Below, in pieces: positions 11,973-20,513 of a stretch of DNA of 64,000 nt. Source of the DNA: Actinomycetota bacterium (GTDB taxonomy: Bacteria; Actinomycetota; Acidimicrobiia; Acidimicrobiales; Ilumatobacteraceae); assembly GCA_016213625.1 (NCBI GenBank), contig JACQZZ010000075.1:1-64000 (forward strand), written 5' to 3'. Position 1 is the stretch's first letter. Every line of letters begins with the position of its first letter. The translations under genes were made by a program, and so were the position numbers. A model generated the notes under the pieces. The model was not told the origin of the DNA, searched no databases, and worked only from the letters and a program-made list of their open reading frames with translations.

Positions 11973-13943
11973 TCAGACGCGCAACGGCGCGGTGCCCAAC
12001 AGGCCCAACGCCTGCGCGGCCGGCAGCGGCCGGGAGAACAGGTAGCCCTGCATGGTGTCGCACCCCAGGCCGAGCAGATCGTCGCGGGCGGCCTCGGTCT
12101 CCACGCCCTCGGCGACGACGGTGAGACCCAACTGGTGACCCAGCTCGATCACCGAGGCGACGATGGCCCGGTCCTCCGGACTCGTCTCCATCGCCAGCAC
12201 GAACCCGCGGTCGATCTTCAGCTCGCTCACCGGCAGGTGCCCCAGCGAGCCGAGTGATGTGTAGCCCTGACCGAAGTCGTCGAGGCTCACCTTCACTCCC
12301 GCCGCGTTCAACTCCTCGAGCAGCGCCGTCGCACGCACCGGGTCGGTGGCGAACGACGTCTCGGTGATCTCGAGCACCAACTGATCGGCGCGTACACCGT
12401 GGGCCGCGAGTCGGTTCATGATCCAACCCGGGAGGTCGTCGCGCAGATTGCGAGCCGAGATGTTGACCGCCATCGACAGCTCGGGGTACGACCGCGACCA
12501 TTCCGCCAACTGGGTGAGTGCCGTGTCGACCACCCAGTGGGTCAGCGGACTGATGAGGCCGGTGCTCTCCGCGATGGGGATGAAGTCGTTCGGGGGCACC
12601 ATGCCTCGCGTGGGGTGCACCCACCGCACGAGCGCCTCGAAGGCCACGACTCGCCCGGTCGCGGCCTCCACCTTCGGCTGATAGTGCAGCACCAGTTCGT
12701 CGGCGCCGATGGCCCGCCGGAGTTCGGCGATGAGGCCCAGCCGTTTGGGATCGAACTCGTCGACGCCGGGGTGATACCGGACGATGGCGGCGCGAGCGGT
12801 CTTGGCCGCATAGAGGGCCAGGTCGGCACGCTGCACCAGGCTGTCGGCGTGGTCGGCATCGCACGGCCACATCGCGTAGCCCATGCTCGCCTCCACGCTC
12901 ACCACCACACCGCCCAGCTCGGCTTCCTGCGCCAGGTAGTCCTGCAGTCGGCGCAGGATGGCCTCCACGGAGTCGGAGCGAACACCGGGAAGGATGACAC
13001 CGAACTCGTCGCCGCCCAGCCGGGCCACGGTGTCACCGGGACGGAGCGCAGCGGTGAGCCGCTCGGCCACGATGCGCAGGAGTGCGTCGCCGTTGCGGTG
13101 CCCGAGCGTGTCGTTGACCTCCTTGAAGCGGTCGATGTCGATCACCACGAGCGCCACGTCGGTTCCGAGCCGTCCCGCCGCGGCGAGCGCGGCGTCCACC
13201 CGGTCGGCGTAGATCGCGCGGCCGGGCAACCCGGTCAGTTGGTCGTGCAGCGCGACGCGCTCGGCCTGCTCGGAGTGTCGGCGGACGCGACGCGCCACCG
13301 ACAGCACGAGCGCCGCCAGCACCATCCAGAGAATGGCCAGGCCGACGACGATGGTGAAGAGGAGTCGGTTCAGGGTGTGCTGCTGACCTTCGGCGATGGG
13401 CGCATAGGGCAGGTACATCTCGGCCACACCGACCACCCGATCGGGCTGGCCGACTGCGTACAGGGCGATGTATGCCTCCACAGCCGGGGCACCGTCGACC
13501 TGCTTGCCGTCGACTGCGTCCGACCCGACGGTGGTGAGCGCGACCAGCGAACCCAGTTCCACGGCTTCCTGGACCTCAGGGTCGATGATGGCGTCGCCGG
13601 GGCCGGCCGCCGGGTCGGCCGCGTCGAACACGATCTGCCCGTCGTTGGTGCGCAACCGCAACTGCAGCACCGTGCCCCGCTCGAGCAGGGTGCTGGTGGT
13701 GCGGGCGATGTCGACTCGCTCGTCACTGGTGAGTCCGAGGCTGAACGGCTGGCCGCGGAGGAACGGTTCGAGGGCGGCAGCCGAGACCGTGGCGGCGTGC
13801 GCTCGGGCCTCCTGGATGGCGTCGCGTTCGATTTCTGTGCGGAACGTGTGGGTGAGGACGAACCCGAGCCAGACCACGGGCACGAGCGTGACGAGTGCAT
13901 AGGCGCCAAAGCGACGAAGCCCTCCCCACCCGGTCGTTTCCAT
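11973..13943 (-). CDS. Membrane GGDEF-EAL cyclic-di-GMP protein
   Basis: The product is 656 residues. TM1 (~12-32) and TM2 (~192-215) bracket an extracytoplasmic sensor region of about 155 residues. A GGDEF domain follows with intact GGDEF at 310-314, then an EAL domain with EALVRW at 436-441, NISARNL, EITE, DDFGQGYTS, LKIDRGF and AEGVET. All expected metal and catalytic residues of the EAL domain appear present, so the protein could both make and degrade c-di-GMP, with one activity perhaps dominant. The sensor domain is not a family I recognise. The gene is divergent from the subtilase gene, with 140 bases between them. Confidence 0.92.
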   Translation of the reverse strand: METTGWGGLRRFGAYALVTLVPVVWLGFVLTHTFRTEIERDAIQEARAHAATVSAAALEPFLRGQPFSLGLTSDERVDIARTTSTLLERGTVLQLRLRTNDGQIVFDAADPAAGPGDAIIDPEVQEAVELGSLVALTTVGSDAVDGKQVDGAPAVEAYIALYAVGQPDRVVGVAEMYLPYAPIAEGQQHTLNRLLFTIVVGLAILWMVLAALVLSVARRVRRHSEQAERVALHDQLTGLPGRAIYADRVDAALAAAGRLGTDVALVVIDIDRFKEVNDTLGHRNGDALLRIVAERLTAALRPGDTVARLGGDEFGVILPGVRSDSVEAILRRLQDYLAQEAELGGVVVSVEASMGYAMWPCDADHADSLVQRADLALYAAKTARAAIVRYHPGVDEFDPKRLGLIAELRRAIGADELVLHYQPKVEAATGRVVAFEALVRWVHPTRGMVPPNDFIPIAESTGLISPLTHWVVDTALTQLAEWSRSYPELSMAVNISARNLRDDLPGWIMNRLAAHGVRADQLVLEITETSFATDPVRATALLEELNAAGVKVSLDDFGQGYTSLGSLGHLPVSELKIDRGFVLAMETSPEDRAIVASVIELGHQLGLTVVAEGVETEAARDDLLGLGCDTMQGYLFSRPLPAAQALGLLGTAPLRV

Positions 13944-14083
13944 AGGTCTCAGCTATCGGCAAGCGATCCTCAAATCTTGAGGGAAATCAGAGATTCAAGA
14001 AAACCGCAAACTGTGGTTGAGCCGCTGCGTTCCGTGCCGATAAGGAATATGGTTCAAGTAGAGCCCAGCGCAAGGAGACTGCC

Positions 14084-15859
14084 ATGAAGGGCCACACCGA
14101 GCAACACAGCAGGATCGGACGGTGGCTCCTCGTCATCTCCGCCACTCTTCTGCTCGCGCTGAGTGCCACCCCCACCACATCGGCATTCGCCGATTCCAAG
14201 GGTGACGATCGGCACGAAGCGGCGGATGATCTTCCCCTCGGGTCGATGTACCACGTGGTGGACCAGATCGGCGCTCGTCAACTGTGGCAGCAGGGCATCA
14301 CCGGCGCGGGCGTCAACGTGGCGCTCATCGACACCGGCTTCGCTCCCGTCCAGGATCTGCTGGACAGCGGACGGGTGGTCCAGGCCGTCGACCTGTCCGC
14401 CGAGTCCGGCGTCGAGCAGGCCGTGTACGTCGACAACTACGGTCACGGCACCCACATGGCCGGCATCATCGCCGGTCGCTCCCCCGGCGTGAACCCTGCG
14501 CTCGCGGCCGACCACCCCGAATGGTTCCTGGGCGTTGCTCCTGACGCGCAGATCGTCTCGGTGAAGGTGGCGGACAACACGGGTGGCGCCGACATCTCGC
14601 AGGTCATCGCCGGCGTCGACTGGGTCGTCGATCACAACGCCGAGCTCAATGTTCGTGTCATCAATCTCTCGTACGCCAGCGGCTCTGCCCTGCCGTACAA
14701 CACCGATCCGCTCACCTACGCCCTCGAGCGGGCGTGGAACGCGGGCATCGTGGTGGTCGTGGCCGCCGGCAACGACGGCCGCAGGTCGAACGCACTCGCC
14801 AGCCCCGCCCTCGATCCGTACGTGATCGCAGTCGGCGCGGTCGAGGCGAAGGACAACGGCGGCTTCAAGGTCCCGGTGTGGGCCTCTGCCGGTGACGGCG
14901 TCCGCAATCCCGACCTCGCCGCCCCTGGTGCGCACATCGACAGCCTCCGGGCGCCGCTGAGCCGCATCGACATCGAACACCCCGAGGGCTACGTCGATGA
15001 GTTCCTGTTCCGCGGGAGTGGTTCGTCGCAGGCCGCCGCCGTGGTCTCCGGCGCCGCCGCACTGCTGATCGACTCCAACCCGAACCTGCAGCCCGATCAG
15101 GTGAAGGCCCTGCTCACCTCCACCACCTCCAAGGTCCGTGGCGGCAAGGCTCGCCAGGTCGGCAGTGGCCTGGTGCAGGTCGACGACGCCGTTGCCGCCG
15201 GTCGGGTGAGCGTGCCCGTCGCCGATCAGAACTGGGCTCCGTCCGACGGTTCAGGGTTGCTCGAGGCCGCCCGTGGGCCGCTGCACATGGTGATCAACGA
15301 CGTGCCGCTCGTCGGCGAGTACACGGTGCTCGGCGCCGAATGGAAGGGCACCGACTGGCCGGGCACTCGCTGGGCCGACCCCGAAGCCCCCATCGCCACC
15401 CCGTCCGGCGTCCGCTGGTCCGGTGGTTCGTGGATGGGCGTGCGCTGGTCGAGCGCGGCATGGACGGGCGTGCGCTGGAGTGGCGTCCGCTGGTCCGACC
15501 TGGCATGGGATGGCGTGCGCTGGAGTGGCGTCCGCTGGTCCGGTGGCACGTGGGACGGCGTCCGCTGGAGTGGCGTGCGCTGGTCGTCCGATGCATGGTC
15601 CGCCGAATCGTGGACCGGTGTCCGCTGGAGCGGGACGAGTTGGACCGACGCGACCTTCGCTGCCGCCATCTGGGACGGTGTGCGGTGGAGCGGCGTTCGC
15701 TGGTCCGGTGATCGTTGGGACGGTGTCCGCTGGAGTGGCGTACGCTGGAGCGACGTGACATGGGACGGCGTTCGCTGGTCGGGTGTCCGGTGGTCGGGTG
15801 TCCGCTGGAGCGACGGTACTTGGTCGGGCCTTGCCTGGGCTGGCGGTAGCTGGGGGTGA
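14084..15859 (+). CDS. Secreted S8 (subtilisin-like) serine peptidase with GVRWS repeat tail
   Basis: The product is 591 residues. A signal peptide (~1-36, hydrophobic LLVISATLLLALSATP) precedes the S8 domain, with catalytic Asp83 (ALIDTG), His121 (YGHGTHMAG), the oxyanion region AAGND and Ser315 in a GSSQAAAVV context, where subtilases usually have GTSxAxP. After ~residue 440 the protein is a Trp-rich tail with 16 copies of GVRWS, often as W-D-GVRWS-GVRWS pairs. An AAGGAG site precedes the ATG. The stop overlaps the GTG start of the GGDEF-EAL gene (GTGA), so the protease and the c-di-GMP protein are co-translated. The tail is probably a surface-binding or stabilising module; this is inference. 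Confidence 0.9.
   Translation: MKGHTEQHSRIGRWLLVISATLLLALSATPTTSAFADSKGDDRHEAADDLPLGSMYHVVDQIGARQLWQQGITGAGVNVALIDTGFAPVQDLLDSGRVVQAVDLSAESGVEQAVYVDNYGHGTHMAGIIAGRSPGVNPALAADHPEWFLGVAPDAQIVSVKVADNTGGADISQVIAGVDWVVDHNAELNVRVINLSYASGSALPYNTDPLTYALERAWNAGIVVVVAAGNDGRRSNALASPALDPYVIAVGAVEAKDNGGFKVPVWASAGDGVRNPDLAAPGAHIDSLRAPLSRIDIEHPEGYVDEFLFRGSGSSQAAAVVSGAAALLIDSNPNLQPDQVKALLTSTTSKVRGGKARQVGSGLVQVDDAVAAGRVSVPVADQNWAPSDGSGLLEAARGPLHMVINDVPLVGEYTVLGAEWKGTDWPGTRWADPEAPIATPSGVRWSGGSWMGVRWSSAAWTGVRWSGVRWSDLAWDGVRWSGVRWSGGTWDGVRWSGVRWSSDAWSAESWTGVRWSGTSWTDATFAAAIWDGVRWSGVRWSGDRWDGVRWSGVRWSDVTWDGVRWSGVRWSGVRWSDGTWSGLAWAGGSWG
15407..15856 (+). repeat. In-frame tandem repeats encoding 16 GVRWS units
   Basis: The 3' end of the subtilase gene is built of near-identical short units encoding GVRWSG or GVRWSD separated by W-containing spacers. 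Codon choice varies between units (gtc/gtg/gtt, cgc/cgg), which means the protein repeat is older than any recent DNA duplication. Confidence 0.9.
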
Positions 15860-18390
15860 GCCAGGAACGCGGCACCGTCCTGCGGATCTGGACGCTGTCC
15901 GCCCTGATGGCAGGTGCCGCTGTCGCACTCATCGAGCGACTCCCCGATGAGGGACAGGCATTGCGACCCGCGGGGTGGTGGCTGGTCCCCATCCTCGCAG
16001 CGCTCTACGCACTGGCGGAGCGCACCGTCTTCCACTTCGAGTTCCGTCGTGAAGCGATCTCGTTCTCCATCAGCGAAGTGCCCACGGCGTTCGCCCTGGT
16101 GTACCTCGCACCATGGCCCTCCGTGGGCGCCCGCATCGTCGGCAGCCTGTTGATGATCACGCTGCGGTGGCGGCAGAGCATGCAGAAGCTGCTGTTCAAC
16201 GCCGCACTGTTCGCACTCGAGCTGGCCATCGCCTATTCACTGGTGCGGCTCATCACCGGGCGGTGGGGCGACGACGCCGCCACGATCGTGGTGGCGCTCA
16301 CCATCGCCACGGCCGTGTCCACCGCGCTCAGCTCGGTGTTCGTGGCGCTGGCCATCAGCTTCATGGAGGGCGGCTTCTTCGAGCGGCTCGTGGGCGAGAT
16401 GCGCATGGCCGTGCTGGTCGCCCCGCTCAACGCCATGGTCGCCGCGGCCATGGTGGCACCCACCCTCGTGTCGCCGTGGCTCACCATCATCGCCGCGGTC
16501 CCGCTCGTCGCCTTCTGGGCGCTGTTCCGCGGGTACGGCAACCTCGAGCAACGCTTCCGCGATCTCGACGCACTGCACGGGTTCGTGCGCAAGGTGGGGC
16601 CCACCCTCGACCTCGCCGAACTCGCCGGCACCGCCGCCACCGAGTCCGCCATCCGCCTGCGCGCCCGCCGGGCGTCGGTGGTGGTGTTCGACGAGACGAA
16701 CGGCAACCGCCGCCATGACGTGGGCGACCCCCTGCCCCAGCTGCCCACCGGCCTGGGCGACCATCGTTGGTCCACCGTGTTCGACCACCCCGAGGCTCGC
16801 CGACTGGAGCTCGAGGAGGCCACGCTCTGGGGCCTGGAGCGCCTGGCCCGAGTGGGCGAAGTGATCGTCGCCCCCATCGCCGACGGAACGACGGTGCTGG
16901 GCGTGTTGGTCATCGCCGAGCGCGATGGCGTGGAGGACCGCTTCCACCCGGCCGACGTGGCCCGCGTGGCCACCATGGTGGACCAGCTGGCGCCGAGCAT
17001 GCGCAAGGCGATGCTGCACCAGCGCATCGAGTTCGAGGCACGCCACGACGGACTCACCGCACTCCCCAATCGCTCCTCGTTCGAGCGCCTGGTCGATGCG
17101 GCCATCGCCGACATCGAGCACGGCTCTGCCGACGTCGACGACGACGGCGTGCTGGGCGTGGTCATCATGATGGACCTCGACCGGTTCAAGGAGGTGAACG
17201 ACACCCTTGGTCACCACGCCGGCGACAGCTTGCTCATCGACTTCGCCCATCGCATCCGGTCGTCGCTGCAGCCGGGAGACGTGCTGGCCCGTCTGGCCGG
17301 CGACGAGTTCGCCGTGCTGTGCCGCCGCACCGTCGATGGCATGCACCAGCTGTCGGCCGCCCTGGTGAACGAGGCTCGCCGCCCGTTCAACATCGACGGG
17401 CTCGAGGTCGTGGTCACCATGAGCGTGGGTGTCGCCCCGATGGTGGGCGCTGTGAAGGACGCGAGCACCATGCTGCGCCGGGCCGACATCGCGATGTACA
17501 CCGCAAAGAACCAGCACACCGGCTACGAGCTGTACCGCGACGAGATCGACCGCCGCACGCCGGCCCGTCTGAGCATGCTCGGCGACCTGCGCAACGCGCT
17601 GGAGCACCACGACCTGCAGGTGCACCTGCAGCCCAAGCTCGACCTGGCCTCCGGCGTGGTCATCGGTGTGGAGGCACTCGCCCGGTGGACCCACCCGCAG
17701 CGCGGGTACGTGTCGCCGGAGGACTTCGTGCACGTGGCCGAGGAGACCGGCCTCATCAAACAGCTCACCGACCTGGTGCTGGAGGCATCGGTCGAGCAGT
17801 TGCGCCGTCTGCGCGACCACGGTCATCACCTGGGCCTGGCCGTGAACCTGAGCACGCACGACCTGCTCGACGAGTTGCTGGCCGACCGTGTGCTGCGCCG
17901 TTTGGATCAGTACGACGTGGATCCGGCGCTGTTGACGCTGGAGATCACCGAGTCGTCGTTGCTCATCGACGCACCCCGTGCCCGCACCACCATCGACCGC
18001 CTGAACCGGGCCGGCATCCGCCTCTCGGTCGACGACTTCGGCACCGGCTACTCGTCGCTGAGCTACCTGCGCAAGCTGCCGGTGAGCGAGTTGAAGATCG
18101 ACCGCAGCTTCGTCAGCAACCTGCTCCTGGAGGACCAGGACGAGGTGATCGTGAAGTCGATCATCGACCTCGGCCACAACCTCGGCATGCAGGTGGTGGC
18201 CGAAGGCGTGGAGACCGACGAGATCATGAACCGCCTGCGCGGCTTCGGTTGCGACGTGGCCCAGGGCTTCGGCATCTGCCGCCCCATCCCGTTCGATCAG
18301 TTCCTCACCTGGCTGAGCGCCACCGGCCATCCGAGCCGCCGCAAGGACCCGCTCAGCGCCGAGGAATACAGCGACGACCCCATCAACTGA
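15856..18390 (+). CDS. Membrane GAF-GGDEF-EAL cyclic-di-GMP protein
   Basis: The product is 844 residues, starting at GTG 15856 inside the stop of the subtilase gene. About seven hydrophobic segments occupy residues 8-225 as a membrane sensor of MASE-like appearance. A GAF-like region (~250-385) follows, then GGDEF with the variant AGDEF at 481-485, and EAL with EALARW at 606-611, EITES, DDFGTGYSS, LKIDRSF and AEGVET. AGDEF can still be catalytic, and the EAL motifs are intact. Coupling to a secreted protease suggests the enzyme controls, or is controlled by, an extracellular proteolytic event. Confidence 0.92.
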   Translation: MSQERGTVLRIWTLSALMAGAAVALIERLPDEGQALRPAGWWLVPILAALYALAERTVFHFEFRREAISFSISEVPTAFALVYLAPWPSVGARIVGSLLMITLRWRQSMQKLLFNAALFALELAIAYSLVRLITGRWGDDAATIVVALTIATAVSTALSSVFVALAISFMEGGFFERLVGEMRMAVLVAPLNAMVAAAMVAPTLVSPWLTIIAAVPLVAFWALFRGYGNLEQRFRDLDALHGFVRKVGPTLDLAELAGTAATESAIRLRARRASVVVFDETNGNRRHDVGDPLPQLPTGLGDHRWSTVFDHPEARRLELEEATLWGLERLARVGEVIVAPIADGTTVLGVLVIAERDGVEDRFHPADVARVATMVDQLAPSMRKAMLHQRIEFEARHDGLTALPNRSSFERLVDAAIADIEHGSADVDDDGVLGVVIMMDLDRFKEVNDTLGHHAGDSLLIDFAHRIRSSLQPGDVLARLAGDEFAVLCRRTVDGMHQLSAALVNEARRPFNIDGLEVVVTMSVGVAPMVGAVKDASTMLRRADIAMYTAKNQHTGYELYRDEIDRRTPARLSMLGDLRNALEHHDLQVHLQPKLDLASGVVIGVEALARWTHPQRGYVSPEDFVHVAEETGLIKQLTDLVLEASVEQLRRLRDHGHHLGLAVNLSTHDLLDELLADRVLRRLDQYDVDPALLTLEITESSLLIDAPRARTTIDRLNRAGIRLSVDDFGTGYSSLSYLRKLPVSELKIDRSFVSNLLLEDQDEVIVKSIIDLGHNLGMQVVAEGVETDEIMNRLRGFGCDVAQGFGICRPIPFDQFLTWLSATGHPSRRKDPLSAEEYSDDPIN

Positions 18391-19135: not shown

Positions 19136-20332
19136 TCAGGGGCCGGGCCGCTGGCGGCGGCCGGTGCGGGCGGCGAACGCGTCGAGCGCCCCCAGCACGT
19201 CCGGGGCGCGCCACAGCCGGTCGCGCTTGTTGTTCGTGAACTCGACGAGCACGCCAGCGTCGACGAGCGGCTGGAGCGCCCGATACACGTTCGTCTGCGG
19301 GATATCGAGCTCACGGCTCAACGAAGGCGCGTTGACCACTGGGTGCCGCATCGCGATCTCGGTGACCTTCCATGCGGCTGCGTCGCGGCGGGCCTTCACA
19401 CGTTGCCCCCAGTCGGCACGGACACGGTGCAGGTCAGCGACGAGCTGCCGGCCGTTGGCGAGCGCAGCGAACGTGGCGTCGGCGAACCGTTCGACGATCG
19501 GGACCGGGTCGCCGTCGCGGTATGCGCCGAGCGCGGCGAAGTACGAGTCGATGTCGGTCAACAAGCCGGCTGACACGGGGACGGTGACGTGGCGGGTGAG
19601 GCGTGCGTGGCGCAGTTGTGCGTGGACGAGCGCCCGCCCGACACGGCCGTTGCCATCAGGAAACGGGTGGATCGTCTCGAACTGGGCGTGGGTGATCGCC
19701 GCGTGTGCGAGGGTCGGGATGTCGGTGCGGGCAATGAACCGGATCAGGTCGTCGATCGCGGCCGGCACTCGGTCCTGGTGCGGGGGGATGAACTGCGCGG
19801 CGTGCGGGCTGTAGTCACCGCCACCGATCCACACTTGCTGGTCACGCCACCGTCCGGCGATCGCAGGAGCGCTGTCGCGCAGGAGCGCGTCATGCATGTT
19901 GAGGATCGCCGGCCCGTCGAGTTGGTCGGCGAGCGCGATCGCAGCACTCATCGCCCGTTCGTTGGCGACGATCAACGCTGCGTTGCGGTTCCCATGGCCG
20001 AGTTCGGCTTCGGCGATCGCTCGGGCGGAGGCGGTCAGGTTCTCGATCTTCGACGACGCAGCGGATTCCGAACGGAGCAGGATCGCAGCGAAGGGGGCGA
20101 TCTCAGCCCCGGCCTCGGCGTCGAAGCGGGCGATCTCCGTGCTCGCGTCCTCTGCGGCGGCCAGCACTGCGGCCTGGAGGGTGACCTGCTCGTCGGCGAT
20201 CGCCGGCGGGATCGCAGCCTGATACGGCTGGCGGGCGAGCAGGCGAGCCTGGCGTGACGCCGGTACGTCGTCACGGCTGTGCCAGTCGCAGGCTTCGAAG
20301 TCGACGGCCGGCCAGGCCACGCGATCGTTCAT
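19136..20332 (-). CDS. Fic family protein (class II, with C-terminal winged helix)
   Basis: The product is 398 residues. The catalytic Fic motif HPFPDGNGRVGR lies at about residue 210, and a class II-type inhibitory motif SSKIEN precedes it at about residue 90. A C-terminal helix-turn-helix (ALQPLVDAGVLVEFTNNKRD, following LSRELDIPQTNVYR) is also present. Fic enzymes transfer AMP or related groups from nucleotides to protein side chains; the target is unknown. The start ATG at 20332 has a GAGGAGG site just upstream. A 9-8-9 inverted repeat lies 14 bases upstream and may be bound by the protein's own winged helix. The gene lies between two copies of a 54-bp repeat, suggesting a small inserted cassette. 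Confidence 0.9.
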   Translation of the reverse strand: MNDRVAWPAVDFEACDWHSRDDVPASRQARLLARQPYQAAIPPAIADEQVTLQAAVLAAAEDASTEIARFDAEAGAEIAPFAAILLRSESAASSKIENLTASARAIAEAELGHGNRNAALIVANERAMSAAIALADQLDGPAILNMHDALLRDSAPAIAGRWRDQQVWIGGGDYSPHAAQFIPPHQDRVPAAIDDLIRFIARTDIPTLAHAAITHAQFETIHPFPDGNGRVGRALVHAQLRHARLTRHVTVPVSAGLLTDIDSYFAALGAYRDGDPVPIVERFADATFAALANGRQLVADLHRVRADWGQRVKARRDAAAWKVTEIAMRHPVVNAPSLSRELDIPQTNVYRALQPLVDAGVLVEFTNNKRDRLWRAPDVLGALDAFAARTGRRQRPGP

Positions 20333-20345
20333 CACCCTCCTCTTG

Positions 20346-20371
20346 GTATCACTTATGGTCAGAAGTGATAC
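20346..20371. promoter_or_regulatory. Inverted repeat upstream of fic
   Basis: GTATCACTT (20346-20354) and AAGTGATAC (20363-20371) are perfect 9-base arms around an 8-base centre. The repeat lies immediately upstream of the Fic gene's ribosome-binding site. It is a likely operator, possibly for autoregulation. Confidence 0.65.
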
Positions 20372-20459
20372 TATCCTGTCGGTTGGGTATCGGTTGGCAC
20401 TCAGCCGCCCTTCCGAACCGTCGGGTGCGAGTCCGTTCACGTCGACGTCGGCCGGGAAC

Positions 20460-20513
20460 ATGCGAAGAGCCGCTCGCCTCATGATGAAGGGAGCGGCTCT
20501 TGCTGTTGCAGCC
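20460..20513. repeat. 54-bp direct repeat, copy B, at the 3' flank of tRNA-Glu
   Basis: This copy includes the last five bases of tRNA-Glu and the terminator hairpin after it. Copy A lies at 19051-19104 in the same orientation. The 1,355 bases between them hold the fic gene. Confidence 0.85.
20466..20500 (-). terminator. Terminator hairpin after the tRNA-Gln/tRNA-Glu pair
   Basis: AGAGCCGCTC (20466-20475) pairs perfectly with GAGCGGCTCT (20491-20500) around a 15-base loop. On the minus strand it begins 9 bases after the 3' end of tRNA-Glu. A U-run is weak, as is usual in high-GC actinobacteria. Confidence 0.7.

Follow-up and report, generated by a model that had tools for sequence, protein, structure and literature searches.

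A Trp-tailed subtilase paired with a modular membrane sensor: a possible outside-in signalling cassette of Actinomycetota

The 64,000-nucleotide stretch of DNA analysed here (the window), from a member of the Ilumatobacteraceae, encodes a subtilase with a tryptophan-rich tail directly upstream of a multi-domain membrane sensor, and the same pairing recurs within the class Acidimicrobiia and elsewhere in the phylum. We propose that the two genes form an outside-in signalling cassette, with the protease upstream of a modular membrane sensor, that has spread through Actinomycetota; we regard the chances of this reading as evenly balanced. The components are of known domain types. The open-access papers searched contain no description of the protease-sensor pair, and its combination with an exchangeable output has, to the extent that this could be checked, not been described before.

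The protease and its Trp-pentad tail

The protease gene comprises the following features.

14072–14077, plus strand: AAGGAG, read by eye as the probable ribosome-binding site for the protease, with the ATG 6 nt downstream
14084–15859, plus strand: S8 subtilase with signal-peptide-like N-terminus and Trp-pentad tail, 591 amino acids (ORF and domain search)
14084–14194, plus strand: signal-peptide-like N-terminus, about residues 1–37 (sequence inspection)
14303–15169, plus strand: peptidase S8 catalytic domain with D83, H121, N230 and S315 (domain search, alignment of 51 homologues, AlphaFold)
15341–15856, plus strand: Trp-pentad tail, W420–W590, with 16 GVRWS units within residues 442–576 (sequence and relatives)

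The protein matches the Peptidase_S8 model with E=3.9e-42 (145 bits versus a cut-off of 21.8). The D83/H121/S315 triad and the oxyanion residue N230 are intact, and the corresponding D/H/N/S residues are kept in 51 of 51 paired subtilases. In an AlphaFold2 model built with 33 homologues, pLDDT values for the catalytic domain are mostly above 90. By inspection the N-terminus (MKGHTEQHSRIGRWLLVISATLLLALSATPTTSAFADS) resembles a Sec signal peptide, and the protein looks like a secreted S8 subtilase. A first-pass annotation of this DNA had described it as a secreted subtilase with 16 GVRWS repeats, which is borne out by the S8 match and by the exact repeat count.

Two further genes of the window were recorded. 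A second GGDEF-EAL membrane protein is encoded divergently upstream of the protease (11973–13943, minus strand); it was considered as a third part of the cassette and rejected, its N-terminus being matched in none of 40 relatives' loci, and it looks incidental to the pair. An ORF at 19136–20482 (minus strand) carries a Fic-like motif (HPFPDGNGRVGR).

From W420 to W590 the tryptophans of the tail are spaced by 5 (or 10 or 15) residues throughout. Such a tail is present in nearly all of the homologues fetched from the class, built from differing units (GTRWT, GARWT, GNTWT, GQAWS, GLSWS), and around the Trp residues the tail statistics favour a small or polar residue at i-2, a polar one at i-1, Ser or Thr at i+1 and Gly at i+2. 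As a control, the genome's remaining four S8 matches were inspected and have neither a Trp tail nor a sensor of this kind nearby. The tail is more than a product of chance, since related subtilases share the five-residue Trp period with other unit letters and the other S8 proteins of the genome are tail-free. Tandem Trp-tailed subtilase genes occur at seven loci, sometimes before one sensor gene. At two further loci the contig ends indicate that contigs can break in or near Trp-repeat DNA, and draft genomes would therefore underestimate both the linkage and the tail length.

Pentapeptide repeats have the consensus A-(D/N)-L-S-G. Proteins with such repeats (PF00805, PF13576) likewise have a five-residue period, and the tail units ASWSG and VRWSG fit the consensus, with a central Trp where pentapeptide repeats have Leu or Phe. 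The protease scores 12.1 bits against PF13576, below the gathering score of 27, and a few members are matched weakly by the pentapeptide Pfam models (best member E=4.9e-4). These comparisons suggest a Trp-centred pentapeptide repeat, as a lead rather than a family membership. The AlphaFold2 model with 33 homologues yielded no confident structure for the tail (pLDDT under 50), and a Foldseek search with this model returned only subtilisins among the matches listed. The beta-fold suggested in the first-pass annotation, binding cell wall, glycan or lipid, is a conjecture for this tail, as is a quadrilateral beta-helix.

The membrane sensor

The TGA stop codon of the protease lies inside the sequence GTGA, and the sensor ORF begins with the GTG at 15856, giving an overlap of 4 nt; the overlap of stop and start noted in the first-pass annotation is therefore correct, with GTG as the start codon. 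The same annotation had named the neighbour a GAF-GGDEF-EAL membrane protein, and the domain searches agree, placing GAF, GGDEF and EAL domains behind a predicted multi-helix membrane domain.

15856–18390, plus strand: sensor, membrane domain-GAF-GGDEF(AGDEF)-EAL, 844 amino acids (ORF and domain search)
15856–16596, plus strand: membrane sensor domain, conserved partner of the protease (profile, AlphaFold, fold searches)
16609–16992, plus strand: GAF domain, residues 252–379 (domain search)
17038–17517, plus strand: GGDEF domain with AGDEF motif, residues 395–554 (domain search)
17584–18285, plus strand: EAL domain with EALAR and DDFGTG motifs kept (domain search, motif reading)

The EAL domain carries the motifs EALAR, DDFGTG, NLST, EITES, KIDRSF and EGVET. 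The GG(D/E)EF position reads AGDEF, and a motif of this type is active in the cyclase VCA0965 (PMC3974145). The sensor is likely to be a phosphodiesterase or a bifunctional c-di-GMP enzyme.

The AlphaFold model of the membrane domain has a pLDDT of 94.7. MASE9 (PF20972) is matched weakly by 18 of 45 relatives of this domain (best 6.2e-6) and not by the window's own domain; MASE9 is likewise placed N-terminally in signalling proteins, and the membrane domain may be weakly and distantly MASE9-like. A MASE9 domain coupled to a subtilase was not found in the literature searched. Foldseek matched the model to TmRibU (E=8.5e-4, TM 0.51/0.69), and the top 21 hits returned by VIA-align were all substrate-binding subunits of ECF or metal transporters (Z 9.7–14.8). 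The modelled domain thus resembles the fold of ECF S-components (RibU, FolT, NikM/CbiM), and no sequence kinship with these is detectable. It differs from them in its fusion to GAF and signalling outputs, in an additional C-terminal helix and possibly in an inverted orientation.

The loop charges suggest that the N-terminus, a conserved hairpin (residues 57–73) and an RRQ loop lie in the cytoplasm, and few residues of the predicted domain are extracellular. An extracellular ligand site as in ECF S-components consequently fits poorly, and the predicted cytoplasmic position of the hairpin is the main problem for a reading in which the domain binds an extracellular ligand. Conserved polar residues (E55, H60, S71, E74, K111 and N115) are found within the hairpin and where the next helices begin, and form a candidate ligand site.

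Conservation of the pairing and exchange of outputs

A protein search of 296 Acidimicrobiia genomes at E<=1e-40 returned 87 subtilase homologues in 49 genomes, and a profile built on the membrane domain of the sensor found 128 homologues, which lie in 79 of these 296. The sensor lies directly downstream on the same strand of 43 of the 87 subtilases, or 46 after closer inspection, the added pairs being one that had been excluded only by the distance cut-off (G019) and two others (L266, L270). Linked pairs span 15 family codes of the class. A co-occurrence analysis, as suggested in the first-pass annotation, revealed an association: the sensor family is present in 47 of the 49 genomes with a subtilase versus 32 of the 247 others, and the count per genus is 33/34 versus 22/114 (p=4e-17), both comparisons being made without phylogenetic correction. 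One genome of the same genus as the window has neither the subtilase nor the sensor.

Within the class, 85 of the 128 sensor-domain proteins have no adjacent subtilase. Together with 18 of 42 sensors beyond the class, this number suggests that the sensor domain also functions where a cis partner is absent. The upstream regions of 40 partnerless sensors were read, and two had a Trp tail at the contig edge; for several unlinked subtilases the contig stops within the repeat or close to it. Some of the missing links thus reflect assembly breaks. For paralogous pairs within genomes, the correlation of subtilase and sensor distances is 0.572 as paired versus 0.495 when swapped (sd 0.035; 38/2000), a modest mirror-tree signal that is consistent with pair-specific co-evolution.

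The pairing was also sought from the opposite side, with the membrane domain alone as the start of a search in genomes across Actinomycetota. This gave 42 sensor ORFs at 40 places outside the class. Directly upstream of 24 of the 42, on the same strand, lies an S8 subtilase, and all 24 are Trp-tailed; the sensors were picked among the better-scoring matches, and the fraction should not be read as an average for the phylum. A DNA-pattern scan for the tail in named genomes provided further pairs among the matches listed, namely in Dactylosporangium aurantiacum NRRL B-8018, in metagenome-assembled genomes labelled Acidothermus, Frankiales, Frankineae, Blastococcus and Thermoleophilia (labels that may be wrong) and, in divergent form, in one Acidimicrobiales metagenome-assembled genome. 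Every pattern match with a substantial S8 score had an in-frame tail, again among the matches listed, and many single matches were discarded as short ORFs or out-of-frame repeat DNA. Trp-tailed subtilases with no neighbouring sensor were found in Virgisporangium, in a metagenome-assembled genome labelled Chloroflexi and at several other loci.

The output of the paired sensor is variable. Across the 51 pairs it is GGDEF-EAL in 29, a histidine kinase in 19, a GGDEF domain cut by the end of the locus in one and something else in two. One of these two is a short membrane-GAF protein, after which comes a complete GGDEF-EAL copy; the other (L243:5351-8977, minus strand) ends in PAS, SpoIIE and HATPase_c_2 domains. 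In a phylogeny of the membrane domain, the well-supported branches require at least four changes of output, and parsimony gives six. These swaps, together with the catalytic residues kept in every paired subtilase, mean that the conserved unit is the subtilase plus the membrane domain, with the output exchanged. The link between the protease and its neighbour, proposed in the first-pass annotation, is real, and its conservation extends well outside this genome; c-di-GMP itself is not a constant of the cassette. In seven kinase cassettes of one family a gene for a CheY-like receiver domain lies just upstream of the subtilase, giving the order receiver-subtilase-kinase. All-against-all BLAST of the fetched flanks, complicated by shadow ORFs, revealed no further gene conserved alongside the pair, for instance one for a substrate adhesin.

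Direction of signalling and relation to known systems

In the proposed cassette, the first gene would supply a secreted subtilase with an intact active site, which its Trp tail would keep on or close to the surface of the cell, and the second an integral-membrane sensor that combines a constant partner of the protease, the membrane domain, with an interchangeable cytoplasmic output. Through proteolysis at the surface a signal would be created, removed or presented, and the membrane domain would sense it. The thing sensed could be a product of the protease or the protease itself, the latter through its tail, and in the window's cassette the consequence would be an altered c-di-GMP level, probably through hydrolysis at the EAL domain. 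We infer the outside-in direction chiefly from the kinase outputs, since the alternation of kinases and c-di-GMP enzymes suits a signal receiver and not a protease trap of the LapD type. A more far-reaching version is offered tentatively and is somewhat unlikely. It takes the Trp-tailed subtilase to be the obligate extracellular front end, acting either as a co-receptor or as an enzyme that generates the signal, of an S-component-like receptor fused to c-di-GMP, histidine kinase or SpoIIE outputs, and the whole to be an undescribed class of signalling system.

The sensor could instead control the neighbouring protease, and other genes, with no feedback of the protease on the sensor. Such co-regulation would agree with the same-strand, often close or overlapping arrangement of the genes and with the receiver genes adjoining some histidine kinase cassettes, and it also predicts conserved linkage and output swaps. 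However, the retention of one protease type and one membrane domain across outputs, with the signal of pair-specific co-evolution, exceeds what it needs, and we consider it unlikely.

In an inside-out scheme, the sensor would capture or release a surface protease according to its c-di-GMP state inside the cell, and so govern adhesin cleavage. Such control is suggested by the combination of a protease and a GGDEF-EAL membrane protein found in LapG and LapD (PMC3032545, PMC3032553). The histidine kinase and SpoIIE-type outputs make adhesion control of this kind improbable as a general function; moreover, the EAL motifs look catalytic, unlike those of a degenerate receptor, the membrane domain is without a large extracellular module, and no adhesin or other conserved third gene turned up in the fetched flanks. 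It is similarly doubtful that the tail is simply an export aid, a propeptide-like element or a substrate-binding part with no role in sensing, and that the two genes are associated by way of a common niche, for example the breakdown of proteins outside the cell. Trp-tailed subtilases with no adjacent sensor would accord with this, but the sensor family occurs in nearly all subtilase genomes and the tail is present in every linked subtilase found from the sensor side. Chance adjacency, the null named in the first-pass annotation, found no support and is refuted for the family by the conserved pairing: this recurs in 15 family codes and beyond the class and the whole genome holds only 15 EAL genes.

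To our knowledge, few systems join an extracellular protease and a transmembrane sensor into a single signalling unit. If the outside-in reading is true, a phylum-wide cassette with exchanged outputs would make extracellular proteolysis a common input to bacterial signalling, and a function would be assigned to the Trp-pentad tail and to the MASE9- or S-component-like sensor domain. The cassette is testable in cultured hosts.

Among NCBIfam subtilase families, the best-scoring for the protease is that of the mycosins, the S8 proteases of type VII secretion (TIGR03921). Its 155.5 bits lie under the cut-off of 278.75, and the protein has a Trp-pentad tail and a sensor neighbour instead. The Lap system works inside-out, in proteobacteria. 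LapG and LapD are a c-di-GMP system of a protease and a GGDEF-EAL membrane protein (PMC3032545, PMC3032553, PMC5231407), and the cassette is like them in that an extracytoplasmic protease is genetically tied to a membrane GGDEF-EAL protein. The protease described here, however, is a serine protease of family S8 whereas LapG is a cysteine protease, and the sensor has a multi-helix membrane domain where LapD has a periplasmic one; the window's sensor scores 134.9 bits against the LapD model, versus a cut-off of 1020. A c-di-GMP receptor is not found in all members, 19 of the 51 paired sensors having the output swapped for a histidine kinase, and no adhesin gene was found in the fetched flanks. 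The earlier remark that the domain types are unlike those of Lap holds for both the protease and the sensor families, and the cassette is not a Lap system.
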